NCBI GenBank assembly: GCA_003559765.1
Contig: PWKH01000061.1
Span: 1 to 44,482, forward strand
DNA length: 44,482 nt
Source of the DNA: Spirochaetaceae bacterium
GTDB lineage: Bacteria; Spirochaetota; Spirochaetia; PWKH01
Reading direction: 5' to 3'
Made by a program: the position numbers and the translations under genes. The notes below the pieces were generated by a model, which was given only the letters and a program-made list of their open reading frames with translations, made no database searches and was not told the origin of the DNA. This document shows, piece after piece, positions 21,338 through 44,482 of this stretch. Position 1 is the first letter of the stretch. The number at the start of each line of letters is the position of its first letter.

Positions 21338-21687
21338 GAGTCCTTACGCAGTCCCTCAATCAGTGCATTTACTTCCATACCCTTATGGATGGAGGTGTCA
21401 ACCACAAACAGCAGCTTCGGAGTATTCCTGGTCTTCAGGGCTTTGCCGATTCTTCCCTGGATAAACCCGGATGCATGGTTCAGTCCGTCAACCGACTCCT
21501 GAAGCACGGACACATCTTCAAAGGTGGATACAAACACCTTGGCAAAAGTATTGTCGCTGGCTACCTCAACGCGGTTGAGCTGCACAAACTTGCTTACCCG
21601 GGGATCCTTTATCTCCTCTTTGAGAATCATTGAAGAAATCAGCTCCTGTATGGATGCTGCTATACGGTCATGTCTGAAACCGCTCAT
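21334..21687 (-). CDS. rbfA: Ribosome-binding factor A
   Basis: A 117-residue KH-fold 30S maturation factor. Family features are RHDRIAASIQELISSMI at the N-terminus, KDPRVSKFVQLNRVEVASDNTFAKVFVS, and the final beta strand with TPKLLFVVDTSIHKGMEVN. It acts late in 16S 5'-end processing and cold adaptation. It is flanked by ATGA overlaps with infB and truB. Confidence 0.95.
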   Translation of the reverse strand: MSGFRHDRIAASIQELISSMILKEEIKDPRVSKFVQLNRVEVASDNTFAKVFVSTFEDVSVLQESVDGLNHASGFIQGRIGKALKTRNTPKLLFVVDTSIHKGMEVNALIEGLRKDS

Positions 21688-24140
21688 AATTTCTTTTTCA
21701 CCTCAACTGTTTCATAAACTTCCAGAATATCGCCTTTCTCAAAGTTCTGAAACTTATCTACGCTGAGACCGCATTCATATCCGGCATCAACGCTCCGGGC
21801 GTCATCCTTGAACCGCTTCAGGGAGGTAATCTTGCCGGTATGAATCACCGTACTGTCCCGGAGCACATGGACCATGCTGTTGCGCTTCACCTTGCCTTCA
21901 AGGACATAGCATCCGGCGATAACACCAATCTTGGGAACCTTGAACATGTCCCGTACTTCGACCTTGCCGATGACCTCTTCCTTCATGTCCGGTGAAAGCA
22001 TGCCTTCCATGGCGGTTCTGATATCATCCACTGCATCGTAGATAATGTTGTACTTGCGTACATCAATTTTTTCTTTATCTGCTAAGAGCTGCGCCTTCGG
22101 TGTCGGACGCACGTTGAATCCGATAACAATCGCTTCGGAAGCGACCGCCAGGTTGATGTCGTTTTCTACAATTGCACCCGCAGAAGCATGGATGACAACG
22201 AGGCGGATATCTCCAGTGGAAAGCTTCTCAAGGGCTGTCTGAAGCGCTTCTACCGAGCCGTGGACGTCTCCCTTGATGATGACTTTTAATTCCTGAATTT
22301 CTCCGTCCTGGATGGAATCAAAGAGATTGTCCAACGTCACCTTCTTCATGCTGGTAGATTCACCCTGCCGTTCAAGCTCCTGCCGCTTGGATGCAACAGT
22401 TCTCGACTGCTTCTCATTTGCCGTAACCTGGAAAGGAGATCCGGAACTGGGGATGCCGCCGAACCCAAGTATCTCAACCGGGGTTGAGGGGGTCGCAACG
22501 TCGATCTTAGCCCCGTGGCTGTCAAAAAGCGCTCGGACCTTTCCGCTGTAAATACCAGCTACAAAAGGATCTCCGACCCGCAGGGTTCCGCGCTGTATGA
22601 TTACCGTGGATACTATTCCCCTTCCATGCTCAACCTTCGATTCAATTACCCGGCCTTCAGCCCGGCAGTCGTATTCAGCATCAAGTTCAAGCATTTCCGA
22701 CTGCAGCAGGATCGTCTCAAAGAGCTCATCAATTCCCTGCAGCTTCAGTGCTGATATTTCGCAGTACAGGGTACTGCCGCCCCAAGCCTCGGGAATCAGA
22801 TCATATTCTGAGAGCTGCTGTTTGACCCGGTCGGGGTTGGATTCAGGAAGATCAATCTTGTTGATGGCGACAATAATGGGCACCTTCGCCGCTTTCGCAT
22901 GATTAATCGCCTCAATTGTCTGGGGCATAACCCCGTCATTTGCAGCGACTACCAGTATGACAATATCAGTCACCTGGGCACCACGGGAGCGCATCATCGT
23001 AAAAGCGGAGTGACCCGGCGTATCGAGGAAACACACCGTCCCTTCGGGACGATTCACCGTATATGCACCGATATGCTGGGTGATTCCTCCGAATTCATCC
23101 CCTGCCACATCTGCGGAGCGGATTGCATCGAGAAGCTTTGTCTTTCCGTGGTCGACATGCCCCATCACCGTAACAATAGGGGGCCGGTTCTTCGTATCGC
23201 GGGACTCATCATAGTCCTTTTCAATTACCGTCTCATCATAAAGAGAAACAATATTAACCGTGCAGTTATACTCAGAGGCAATCAGCTGAGCAGTATCGGA
23301 ATCAAGCTGCTGATTAATGGTCACCATCATCCCCATGCCCATCAGTTTCGAGATCAGCTCGTTGGCCTTCAGATTCATCTTGCGGGCAAGTTCACTGACG
23401 GTGATTACCTCCATGATGTCTATCTTTTTCGGCACCGGATTTACTTTCTGGCTCTGCTTTTTCTTCAGATGGAAATTTCGCTCAGGAGCCTGCTCCTTCT
23501 TCCGGTAGTCAATCTTCTTCTTCTGTTTGAAGGTCTTCTTACTGTGTTTCTTTGCTCCCTCTTTCTGTTCATCAGCGGCGGGAGCCGGTGCAGCACCAGG
23601 TTTTGGGGCGGGACCTTTCTGAAAGGGTCCCTTCCGTCTGTCATCGGCAGGAGGTATGGGTCCTCTCCTGCGGGGAGGCTGCTGGGGCCGGTCGTCACGA
23701 TGGGCCCTCCGCGGCTGCTGGGGCCGGTCCCGTTTTTCCGCCTCCCCTCCGGCTGGTCTCCTGGGAGCGCGGGAAATATAAGCCTGGCGGGGCTTCTGCT
23801 TCTTCACCTCCGCAGCAGGCGCCGTCTTCTGCTGTTCCGGCTGCTGTGGTTGCTTGGCCTGTTCCGGCTGTTTCTGCTGTTCAGGCTGTACGGCCTGTTC
23901 AGGTTTCTTCTGAGGTTCCTGAGGCTGAGCCGATTCAGGCTGTCCGGCGGCAGGCTGCTGATCAGCAGTCTCATCCGGCGTTTCCTTCGGCGGTGTTTTT
24001 TTTACTAACCGCTTTTTCTTGACTACTACCACCTTCTTCTTCTCAGGAGGACGATCGGACTGAGGCTGAGGACTCTTACTGGTATCAGTTCGTTTGTGTT
24101 TGATTAGTGTAGCCTTCGGTTTGTTGTTTTCTTCTGCCAT
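21684..24140 (-). CDS. infB: Translation initiation factor IF-2
   Basis: An 818-residue IF-2. The first ~235 residues are low-complexity, rich in Lys, Pro, Gln and Arg, with [15 protein letters not shown]-type repeats and RPQQPRRA-type repeats. An IF2N segment follows ([27 protein letters not shown]). The GTPase domain contains [17 protein letters not shown] (G1), [10 protein letters not shown] (G2), DTPGHSAF (G3) and NKIDLP (G4). Domains II-IV complete the fMet-tRNA binding part. It positions initiator tRNA and joins the subunits. It lies 19 nt behind nusA and overlaps rbfA by 4 nt. Confidence 0.98.
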
Positions 24141-25689: not shown

Positions 25690-26160
25690 CTATTTCTCCT
25701 TCAAACTACCCGCTAACTTTGCTTTTCTAATTGATTCCACGGCATATGACACCGTTTTGTTCTCCGTATCGAGGGTGACCTGGGCCCCGTCAAAGTCTCG
25801 GAGCACCCCTTCTGTCCACTGCTCATCTATCAGGATACGAATCTGCTCTTCCTGAAAGACAGTAAATTCATGAACATCCTTGAAACTACGGCTCAGTCCC
25901 GGGGAGGATACCTCCAGGTGGATATCCCGGGTGTCGAATAACACGGTCAGCCTCGGCTGAACCAGTCGGGACACTGCAGCGCAGTCATCAAGGGAGGTGT
26001 TACCTCGGGGATTGCGGATGACCACCTGCACATGCCGATCCCGTTTAACCACTGCATCCTGCACGTCAACTACAGTATACCCCAATGACTGCACCAGCGG
26101 AAAGAGTTCCTGATATAATTCCTTCGTCTGAATCTTATTCTGCAGCATATTTTCTTTCAT
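25690..26160 (-). CDS. rimP: Ribosome maturation factor RimP
   Basis: About 156 residues from the start used here. RimP blocks visible: LFPLVQSLGYTVVDVQ, VQVVIRNPRGNTSLDDCAAVSRLVQPRL, and DIHLEVSSPGLSRSFKDVHEF. The C-terminal SH3-like domain carries the GVLRDFDGAQVTL strand pattern. It is needed for 30S assembly. The track's ORF begins at 26268, upstream of the promoter I identify, so that start cannot be used from this promoter. The ATG at 26160 (MKENMLQ, next to GGAAGGG) or at 26148 is likelier. It heads the long operon and follows a terminator-like hairpin in the leader. Confidence 0.9.
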   Translation of the reverse strand: MKENMLQNKIQTKELYQELFPLVQSLGYTVVDVQDAVVKRDRHVQVVIRNPRGNTSLDDCAAVSRLVQPRLTVLFDTRDIHLEVSSPGLSRSFKDVHEFTVFQEEQIRILIDEQWTEGVLRDFDGAQVTLDTENKTVSYAVESIRKAKLAGSLKEK

Positions 26161-26186
26161 CCCTTCCAGCAGAGCCGATGCGGCAC

Positions 26187-26218
26187 AAAAAAAGGATCGA
26201 ACCAATTCGACCCCTTTT
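26187..26218 (-). terminator. Intrinsic-terminator-like hairpin in the rimP-nusA leader (candidate attenuator)
   Basis: In the minus-strand transcript AAAAGGGGTCGAA, loop TTGG, then TTCGATCC followed by seven T form a stem of up to 13 pairs (two G-U) running into a U-tract. It lies about 23-54 nt after the predicted transcription start and 26 nt before the rimP ATG. Read in this direction it can only terminate the leader RNA of the operon itself. On the other strand the hairpin would be followed by only four T. Confidence 0.7.
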
Positions 26219-26247
26219 CTCTCGCAGGAAAAAAAAGTTGTACTCAC

Positions 26248-26276
26248 TGTATAGCAAGTTATTGACATTGCGTCAA
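26248..26276 (-). promoter_or_regulatory. Sigma70-type promoter of the rimP-nusA-infB...murJ operon
   Basis: Minus strand TTGACG (5/6), exactly 17 nt, TATACA (5/6). The expected start is an A at about 26241, giving an ~81-nt leader to rimP. It is the best promoter in the window and the only strong one before thirteen closely spaced co-directional genes. Confidence 0.75.
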
Positions 26277-26400: not shown

Positions 26401-28992
26401 TCACGGCTTCTGCCTGTTTTTCAGCAGTCTGTGCTGTATGTTTGAAAGAAACACCAGAGCCTCCATGGGAGTTGCATGATTGACCTCGAAGGCTGCAATT
26501 TCCTCCAGCACTTCCCGGGTTTCCGTATCAAGATCGGACTGCTGAGGCTGAACCTCCTCGCTGATATCGAACAGCTCCAGCTGGGAGGAGCCCTCCCGGG
26601 TGCGGGAGAGCTCAAGCTTCTCAAGCTGTTTCTCCGCCCTTCGAATCACCGACTGGGGAAGCCCGGCAAGTTTTGCCACATGAATACCGTATGAAGACTG
26701 CATGCTCCCCGGCTTTACCCGGTTGAGAAACTTTATCTCATCTCCCTGCTCATGGACGTCAAGAAACAGCTTCTGAATCATCGGGGAATCAAGGGATGTC
26801 AATTCATGGAAATGGGTGGCAAAGAGGGTTTTGCTGCCGATATGCACCACGTAATGGAGCACTGCACTGGCTATGGAGATGCCGTCGGCAGTGCTGGTGC
26901 CCCGGCCGACTTCGTCCATGATAATCAGGCTTTCTGAGGTAGCATTCCTGAGAATGTAGGCGGTCTCATTCATCTCGACGAGAAAGGTGCTCTCACCCCT
27001 GGCCAGGTTGTCCGAAGCTCCGACCCGGCAGAAGATTTTATCAACTTCCCCGATCAGCGCAGCCTCTGTCGGCACAAAACTTCCCATATAGGCCATCACG
27101 ATAATCAGGGCGTTCTGCCTGAGAAATGTTGACTTCCCCGCCATATTCGGACCGGTAATCAGGGCAAACCGGTGGTAATCCCGGGGAACAGTCAAGTCAT
27201 TCGGGACGAAGTCCCCCGGAGGGAGACTCTTTTCAACGACAGGATGACGTCCTCTGACAATCTCCAGTTTGTTCTCCCCGCAGAACTTCGGGCGGACATA
27301 CCCGAGGGAGACTGCGGCATGGGCAAGGGACTGGTAGCAGTCAGCAGTGGCGCAGACCTGACCCGCCTCCAGGATCTCGCCTGAGGCTTCCTGAATCCGA
27401 CTGATAATCTCCTGATACACCCGTTTTTCCAGATCCACATACCCTTCCCTGGCCTCCCTGAGGCGGGATTCCAGGTCCAGCAGGTACTCGCTGGTAAAGC
27501 GCTCCGAGTTTACCAATGTCTGCTTTCTGATGAATTTCCCGTCGATCTGCGGGCTTGCGGTCTTGGAAACCTCGATGAAATATCCCAGGATTTTGTTGTA
27601 CTTAATCCGCAGCTTCTGGATACCCGTCTCATCCCGCAGCTGCTGCTGATACCTGCTGATATACTCCACACTGTGGTCAAGATAATCCCGCATGGAATCC
27701 AGCTCTTCATGATACCCCGGCTTGATCAGATACTGCTGGTGGGATGCCGGCTCAAAATGAATGCTCGCTTCGATCAGCTCAGCAGCTGACCGTACTGCAG
27801 TGCATATTCTCTCCTCCATGTTCACCTTCAGCCTGCCTGCCGCCGCCTCATTGACCGCAAGAGACCGCTCCAGGGACTGACGCAGGGAATACAGATCCTT
27901 CGGCTGAGCACGGCCGATCATGATGCGGGTGGTGATCCGCGGGATGTCGAGCATCCCCTTGAGCAGTCCCCGAAGTTTCTGCAGCAGGTCCGGTGAATGG
28001 TACAGAACATCCACCGCATCAAGCCGCTCAGTGCGCTGATCCGCATCCATCAGCGGGCGGATGATCCAGTCCCGGAGCATTCTGGAACCGCTGGCGGTGA
28101 CGGTATGCTTCAGGACTGCATACAGAGTGTCCTTTTCGCTTCCGTCCTGGAGATTCTTCAGCAGCTCAAGGTTCCGCTGGGTGGACTCGTCCATCAGCAG
28201 ATAGTCCCGCCGCTGATGGGGTCTGATTGACCGGATATGCTGCAGATTGAGCTTTGCATTGTCCCGCAGATAGGTGATCAGGGTACCCACCGCATACATT
28301 CCGGGTTCGTCCTCTCCGATACCGAATGCCTGGAGGGAACTGACTCCGAAGAGCTCCCTGCAGGCCTGGTAGGAGGCTTCAATATCGAAACTCCAGTCGG
28401 GAAAGGTGGTAACCATTGCAGAAGAGGAGGCAAGCACCCGCTTTACCTCCGGCCGATCATGATAGAGCGACTCCTGAAACAAAGCCTCCGACGGATCCAG
28501 TTCGAATAACAGCTTCCGGATCTGATGCAGGGGATCATCAAAGGGCTGGGAGGCGACGGAGAACTCACCGGTGGACACATCAATCCATGCTGCAGTCAGC
28601 AGTCCGCCGAACACGCCGCAGGAGATAATGTAGTTGTTTTTCCCCGAAGCCAGCAGATCGTCATCAATCACTGTTCCCGGAGAAATCACCTGCACCACTT
28701 CCCGTTTTGCAATCCCCTTCTCGGGCATTTCAGTCTGTTCGCAGATGGCAATCCGCTTCCCTGCATCAAGGAGCTTCTTCACATAGCTCTTGGTCGCATG
28801 ATAGGGAATACCGCACATCGGAATGCCGTTTCTCGCCGTCAGAGTTACATTGAGGATATTGGAGGCGGTCTGGGCGTCCTGATCAAACATCTCGTAGAAG
28901 TCGCCGAGACGGAAAAAGAGTATCTCCTCCGGATACTCCCGTTTGATCGAGTAGTACTGACGCATCATCGGGGTCGCATTGTCTTCAGCCAT
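26401..28992 (-). CDS. mutS: DNA mismatch repair protein MutS
   Basis: An 863-residue MutS1. Mismatch-binding domain: RLGDFYEMFDQDA, where the Phe and Glu of FYE contact the mismatch. Connector, lever and clamp domains follow. The ATPase has GPNMAGKSTFLRQ (Walker A), SLIIMDEVGRGTSTADG (Walker B/signature) and THFHEL. Near the C-terminus SSQLELFD is a beta-clamp-binding QLxLF motif. It recognises mispairs and recruits MutL. GAGGAT precedes the ATG. It is the last gene of tamB-bamA-mutS, separated from bamA by a strong hairpin. Confidence 0.98.
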   Translation of the reverse strand: MAEDNATPMMRQYYSIKREYPEEILFFRLGDFYEMFDQDAQTASNILNVTLTARNGIPMCGIPYHATKSYVKKLLDAGKRIAICEQTEMPEKGIAKREVVQVISPGTVIDDDLLASGKNNYIISCGVFGGLLTAAWIDVSTGEFSVASQPFDDPLHQIRKLLFELDPSEALFQESLYHDRPEVKRVLASSSAMVTTFPDWSFDIEASYQACRELFGVSSLQAFGIGEDEPGMYAVGTLITYLRDNAKLNLQHIRSIRPHQRRDYLLMDESTQRNLELLKNLQDGSEKDTLYAVLKHTVTASGSRMLRDWIIRPLMDADQRTERLDAVDVLYHSPDLLQKLRGLLKGMLDIPRITTRIMIGRAQPKDLYSLRQSLERSLAVNEAAAGRLKVNMEERICTAVRSAAELIEASIHFEPASHQQYLIKPGYHEELDSMRDYLDHSVEYISRYQQQLRDETGIQKLRIKYNKILGYFIEVSKTASPQIDGKFIRKQTLVNSERFTSEYLLDLESRLREAREGYVDLEKRVYQEIISRIQEASGEILEAGQVCATADCYQSLAHAAVSLGYVRPKFCGENKLEIVRGRHPVVEKSLPPGDFVPNDLTVPRDYHRFALITGPNMAGKSTFLRQNALIIVMAYMGSFVPTEAALIGEVDKIFCRVGASDNLARGESTFLVEMNETAYILRNATSESLIIMDEVGRGTSTADGISIASAVLHYVVHIGSKTLFATHFHELTSLDSPMIQKLFLDVHEQGDEIKFLNRVKPGSMQSSYGIHVAKLAGLPQSVIRRAEKQLEKLELSRTREGSSQLELFDISEEVQPQQSDLDTETREVLEEIAAFEVNHATPMEALVFLSNIQHRLLKNRQKP

Positions 28993-43964: not shown

Positions 43965-44323
43965 GGGGGTGCCAAGGTCTCGACTGGTGGTTTTGTACAG
44001 TTTGTGGCTGCAGGCGGAGCTGCTAACTCCTTAATCTGGCAACAAAAATTATTTGCTGACAACAATCAAGCAGATTTTGCTTTAGCTGCATAAATTAGCA
44101 GCTGCGGACCCCGGCAGTGCCGTTCTGAGCTGCCGACGGTCTGAAACAAACCCCAGGACTTACTCTTCCGTCAGCCCTTGGCGGACAGAGGAAAATCAAA
44201 GGGCTGGAAAGCCGTCATGCCGGTCTGAGCGCTACGCGGCTTTTGAGAACATAAGATCAGACTAAGCTTGTAGAGGTCACAAGCTTGCCCATCAGGACGC
44301 GGGTTCGATTCCCGCCACCTCCA
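43965..44323 (+). ncRNA. ssrA: Transfer-messenger RNA (tmRNA)
   Basis: About 359 nt. The 5' end GGGGGTG pairs with CACCTCC at the 3' end (7 bp, one G-U) to form the acceptor stem, followed by discriminator A. The T arm GCGGG-TTCGATT-CCCGC and the TCTCGACTGG 5' block are typical of tmRNA. CCA is not encoded (TCC follows), so it must be added. The tag frame starts at GCT (44055) and reads ADNNQADFALAA then TAA, ending in the ALAA degron recognised by ClpXP-type proteases. GC-rich complementary segments after the tag are consistent with the pseudoknots. It rescues stalled ribosomes with SmpB. An apparent ORF on the other strand is spurious. Confidence 0.96.
44055..44093 (+). other. ssrA: tmRNA tag-peptide reading frame
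   Basis: Twelve codons plus TAA within ssrA: A-D-N-N-Q-A-D-F-A-L-A-A. The resume codon is GCT (Ala), the commonest choice. The C-terminal ALAA matches the usual proteolysis signal. The exact resume codon is inferred from the ALAA frame and its Ala start. Confidence 0.88.
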
Positions 44324-44482
44324 TCCTTCACTGCTGCAGCGGAATTGACTGTTTTCCCTGCAGCCTTCCCGAATGAACACAACCGCGCAGCTCTATCTGC
44401 TTCTTTTCTGCATCAGCTTGCAGGAAAACGTACAAAAACCAATATATACTCATATGAACAGCAGACTCAGCATGCTGAGGCA
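44324..44482. other. Region downstream of ssrA
   Basis: 159 nt with no gene I can support. GCTGCAG and CTGCAGC (44333-44364) form 7-bp inverted arms around 18 nt just after ssrA, but no T-run follows, so it is at best a processing or weak terminator structure. An ATG near 44455 opens MNSRLSMLR to the window end after an AT-rich TATATACT, but without a ribosome-binding site. It might be the start of another gene. Confidence 0.4.
44466..44479. repeat. 14-bp perfect palindrome at the window end
   Basis: CTCAGCATGCTGAG equals its reverse complement. It lies downstream of a TATATACT box and could be an operator or part of a coding start. The context is cut off by the window edge. Confidence 0.3.

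Follow-up and report, generated by a model that had tools for sequence, protein, structure and literature searches.

Does NusA limit its own synthesis in spirochaetes by stopping transcription in the leader of its operon? The question is raised by a short hairpin upstream of rimP in a spirochaete MAG. The window analysed here covers positions 1 to 44,482 of contig PWKH01000061.1. Among the genomes compared, the closest relatives of the window genome are one from the same genus and one from the same family. The hairpin had been picked out by a first-pass annotation, made from the sequence alone, as a candidate attenuator. Comparison with other spirochaetes supports that reading well, and a part for NusA is probable.

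The operon and its genes

The rimP, nusA and infB genes follow one another in that order, with mutS upstream and ending at 26401 (Table 1). The first-pass annotation had named the first two operon genes as rimP and nusA, and profile matches (RimP_N and TIGR01953) bear this out. RimP matches Pfam RimP_N at 53.6 bits (cut-off 22.7), while its matches to the NCBIfam RimP models all fall below their cut-offs. MutS (TIGR01070), NusA (TIGR01953) and IF-2 (TIGR00487) score above theirs. A longer rimP reading frame could begin at 26268, a start that falls inside the promoter spacer.

The NusA protein ends in a zinc-ribbon-like segment of the form CPxCG...CPxCG (residues about 472-496), which comes after an acidic linker and a helix-hairpin-helix region. 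At 25.7 bits for Pfam Zn_ribbon_3 and 25.5 bits for HHH_5, the two matches narrowly miss the 27-bit cut-off, and matches to relatives run through this C-terminus. Elsewhere, the window carries a tmRNA gene (RF00023, 153.9 bits, 43965-44326, plus strand), the one Rfam match at gathering score in the whole window.

Table 1. Features of the rimP-nusA-infB region, in window coordinates.
Feature	Position	Strand	Basis or remark
-35 box TTGACG	26271..26276	-	read from sequence; TTGAC-type -35 conserved across the class set
Extended -10	26248..26256	-	TATACA 26253-26248; TG at 26256-26255, one base between
TACAACTTTT, weak form of the 5' motif RACAKYTTAA	26233..26242	-	window score 5.1
Terminator hairpin AAAAGGGGTCGAA-TTGG-TTCGATCCTTTTT	26189..26218	-	folding, terminator scan, model R1 match
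U-tract T7, predicted release site	26187..26193	-	read from sequence
Probable Shine-Dalgarno GGAAGGG of rimP	26161..26167	-	by eye; downstream of the U-tract
rimP, 152 aa	25690..26148	-	start at 26148 is an inferred choice; Pfam RimP_N
nusA, 508 aa	24160..25686	-	TIGR01953, 412.9 bits; NusA_N, KH_5
infB (IF-2)	21684..24140	-	TIGR00487, 845 bits

A promoter followed by a terminator hairpin

The annotation had described a promoter, TTGACG-N17-TATACA, followed by a stem of up to 13 pairs that runs into seven U and is oriented to stop transcription of the operon's own leader. Both elements are present on the minus strand. The promoter has the 17-nt spacer and, in addition, the TG of an extended -10; a TG at -15/-14 is also seen in 54 of 105 rimP promoters of the class. 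The hairpin core begins 34 nt after TATACA.

The full stem of 13 pairs (26218-26206 with 26201-26189) is reached by counting flanking A-U and G-U pairs. Within it lies an 8-pair core, GGGTCGAA-TTGG-TTCGATCC (26213-26206 with 26201-26194, loop TTGG, minus strand), with an energy of -8.8 kcal/mol. RNA folding of the leader, a check that the annotation had proposed, returns the hairpin with a minimum free energy of -17.5 kcal/mol (z = -3.0). In our own terminator scan it scores 18 and ranks first over both strands of the 44 kb, a score reached in none of 20 dinucleotide-shuffled sequences of that size. The features expected of an intrinsic terminator are found: a GC-containing hairpin, a U-tract directly after it, and conservation with compensatory changes.

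A generic consensus scanner missed both elements in the window. The hairpin apparently escaped because a stem-then-T rule bars outer A-U pairs that use the T-tract, and the promoter because TATACA lacks the T that the scanner demands at the last -10 position.

Conservation across spirochaetes

A terminator was found by a crude scan in 145 of 161 rimP leaders of the phylum, a few of these hairpins being in odd positions. Two leaders negative in the scan have, by eye, a hairpin that is bulged or too poor in G-C pairs. In a set of named records that overlaps the larger one, 69 of 76 leaders have the hairpin at the expected position. Some distant members of the phylum show no rimP leader hairpin in our scan. 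Five leaders from distant members have the hairpin core GAGUGG, not GAGUCG, and the hairpins of putative Borrelia-type genomes have diverged.

The promoter and the hairpin keep a near-fixed distance. A usable hairpin is present in 112 class leaders, and in 105 of these it follows a TTGACA-type promoter that scores at least 11.8. From the -10 to the stem the median distance is 31 nt (5th-95th percentile 23-37), and the predicted terminated RNA is 51 nt. The share of leaders with a promoter of this score at 28-37 nt ahead of the stem is 78%, against 1.8% among shuffled leaders; these figures are descriptive only, as they come from our own scoring of promoter likeness in related genomes.

The annotation had also suggested aligning the leader across related spirochaetes, and the comparison shows both compensatory changes in the stem and retention of the U-tract. 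In 49 aligned sequences, 94.2% of the cells in the stem are paired, and seven of the ten pairs have changed on both sides. Double changes fill 49 cells, against 18.9 (sd 3.8) in shuffles, and the signal is lost when the pairing partner is slid. The U-tract holds a mean of 7.1 T within its first 8 nt (112 leaders).

The sequence of the stem may be constrained beyond pairing, since one C-G pair is invariant in the 49 sequences and 69 of 112 rimP leaders retain the core GAGUC, which occurs in none of 38 ordinary terminators.

Specificity of the leader hairpin

A covariance model of 49 rimP leaders (R1) was run over 148 genomes of the class. In the window it matches 26219-26185 with 33.3 bits. For 45 genomes outside the training set in which NusA was located, many of them relatives of training genomes, the rimP leader is among the matches listed in at least 33, and the best among the matches listed in 30. 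The model is not exclusive to rimP: 20 other matches look mostly like terminators at gene ends, many with a GAGCCG core. Four genomes of one family carry a hairpin with this core between convergent genes, scoring near or above the rimP leader.

Control sequences were taken from 1.2 Mb of genomes of the same class. Terminator-like hairpins were found before 2 of 194 divergent genes, and by our own scan after 38 of 633 gene ends. The latter count suggests that these spirochaetes make little use of strong intrinsic terminators.

These counts bear on a rival explanation, in which the hairpin has no regulatory part and ends transcripts that read through from the upstream gene, here mutS. The layout speaks for this idea. 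Of 73 named loci, 66 have a co-directional upstream gene; its end often falls within the promoter region, about 45-55 nt ahead of the stem, and the rimP hairpin is the first terminator after it. However, a promoter intervenes, and its distance from the hairpin is nearly constant; hairpins also follow very few gene ends when about 90% of rimP leaders have one. The hairpin is also kept in six of seven loci scored with a divergent upstream gene, although some of these gene calls may be spurious. Read-through blocking as the whole explanation is thus improbable; an additional role as a block on mutS read-through is possible.

The reading of the hairpin as an attenuator of the rimP-nusA operon, as the annotation had it, is well supported at the sequence level: the hairpin is conserved across the phylum, its stem covaries, the U-tract is retained, the distance to the promoter is nearly fixed, and other leaders rarely have such a hairpin.

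How the attenuator may work

The hairpins at rimP are weak. Their cores have a median energy of -8.8 kcal/mol, compared with -13.3 kcal/mol in the 38 ordinary terminators (P = 6e-8), and their U-tracts are slightly better. A weak hairpin is a trait of the NusA-autoregulated attenuator of the B. subtilis type, and the rimP cores have it.

An antiterminator was sought and not detected: pairing between the upstream leader and the 5' arm has a mean of -3.85 kcal/mol against -3.57 in shuffled leaders, and reaches p<0.05 in just 5% of leaders. This leaves ribosome-mediated or RNA-switch attenuation, which would need such a structure, a remote prospect. In the window the A-rich base of the stem has a possible pairing partner in an upstream stretch of U8, but this pairing leaves the core hairpin and the U-tract intact, and the leader has no room for a leader peptide gene.

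The preferred reading, with a probability of about 0.68, is a constitutive leader attenuator without antiterminator, in which NusA sets the fraction of polymerases that stop. RNA polymerase would start near 26241 and make about 25-30 nt before the short, weak hairpin and U7. Some polymerases would then release an RNA of about 55 nt ahead of the ribosome site of rimP, and the remainder would read through into rimP-nusA-infB. By aiding hairpin formation in the RNA exit channel, NusA would enlarge the stopping fraction and so set its own level.

The elements of this scheme observed by comparing sequences are the promoter with its hairpin and U-tract, their conservation and spacing, the covariation of the stem, its weak core and the lack of a detectable antiterminator. 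From them we infer that transcription terminates at the spirochaete rimP leader in vivo. Dependence on NusA, and with it feedback, would follow by analogy: it is suggested by the weak hairpin, the lack of a detectable antiterminator and the precedents in B. subtilis and E. coli (PMC12288461; PMC2965389). The uninterrupted U-tract of the window counts against a NusA dependence like that of B. subtilis, whose sites may also have interrupted U-tracts.

The released RNA of about 55 nt might itself be the product, a small RNA acting in trans. The best sub-threshold Rfam match is sX14, an Hfq-dependent small RNA of Xanthomonas, but its 20 bits are far below the cut-off of 80 and stem from a generic terminator hairpin; the idea is very unlikely.

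A motif at the 5' end of the leader

Part of the class shares a 10-nt motif, RACAKYTTAA. It usually lies 5-9 nt downstream of the -10, with 13-17 nt between it and the stem. Its log-likelihood is 69.5, against 31.6 in shuffles (sd 3.8, max 39). Scores of at least 5 are reached in 27% of 51 further leaders and in 4% of 76 control promoters (P = 3e-5). Since no more than 27% of the further leaders reach this score, the motif is, by this comparison, a lineage-limited feature.

The motif bears on whether the attenuator answers to another signal. RimP, a ribosomal protein, IF-2, another RNA-binding protein or growth state could act on it, possibly via the 5' motif. The conserved stem sequence and the partly conserved motif hint at sequence recognition, and RimP is also mentioned by Naville and Gautheret (PMC2965389). 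However, there is no larger conserved structure, only about 25 nt of RNA precede the stem, and the motif is strong in just part of the class. Control by such a signal is unlikely. A related and speculative idea is that a protein reads both RACAKYTTAA and the GAGUCG stem at their near-fixed distance from the promoter. The leader would then be a compact sequence-specific attenuator that senses NusA on its own within about 55 nt.

Direct contact between NusA and the leader RNA is not indicated by these sequences, as a boxA-like element near TTCTTTGGCAATATAGGGAAGGG, seen upstream of 16S rRNA in several spirochaete rRNA leaders, was not seen in rimP leaders. A NusA site of the boxA/boxC type in the rimP leader was accordingly set aside. 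The 5' motif as a NusA contact likewise gained no support from the rRNA leaders, in which RACAKYTTAA is not clearly enriched, as judged without a shuffled control. A possible resemblance of the motif to GAACUCAAUAG, a target of the KH domains of M. tuberculosis NusA, is given no weight here.

Relation to known systems

Feedback by NusA through the rimP-nusA leader is an idea already known. What appears to be new is the spirochaete form, with its distinct stem signature, lack of an Rfam match, near-fixed distance between promoter and hairpin, and partly conserved RACAKYTTAA. It extends across the spirochaetes an attenuator described for Firmicutes and Gammaproteobacteria. As detectable intrinsic terminators are otherwise uncommon in these genomes, the presence of one at rimP in nearly all of them suggests that control of NusA levels is under strong selection.

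The closest description is the rimP-leader of Naville and Gautheret (2010; PMC2965389), whose main text does not mention spirochaetes. Both have a short hairpin and U-tract just upstream of rimP-nusA-infB, between the promoter and rimP; both have a conserved stem sequence, and no antiterminator is detected here, just as the general form of those authors has none. They likewise proposed NusA feedback. The stems differ. The motif GGGc...gCCC of Naville and Gautheret is found neither in the window (GGGUC...GAUCC) nor in the class consensus, most of the class having GAGUCG...CGACUC.

The gammaproteobacterial leader, Rfam RF01770, belongs to the same gene and occupies the same position. It has no match at gathering score in the window or in 20 spirochaete loci, with E. 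coli as a positive control at 102 bits; conversely, R1 does not match the E. coli leader. Unlike the spirochaete form, that leader has a tandem hairpin and an upstream tRNA. E. coli NusA represses its own operon, according to references given in PMC2965389. Because neither the GGGc...gCCC signature nor an RF01770 match was found, the spirochaete leader, which would work like both, is best called a variant and not a member of either.

NusA aids folding of the hairpin in the exit channel, and its effect is greatest at weak terminators, as described in PMC12288461. The same article cites Mondal 2016 for autoregulation of B. subtilis NusA by leader attenuation. The spirochaete form shares a weak hairpin with the B. 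subtilis nusA leader and would share intrinsic termination in the 5' leader that limits entry into the operon. As cited there, stimulation by NusA is experimental in B. subtilis, whereas in spirochaetes it would be expected by analogy. The lengths also differ, with about 180 nt in B. subtilis (PMC2965389) against about 55 nt to the end of the U-tract here, and so short a leader offers a direct test bed for NusA-dependent termination.
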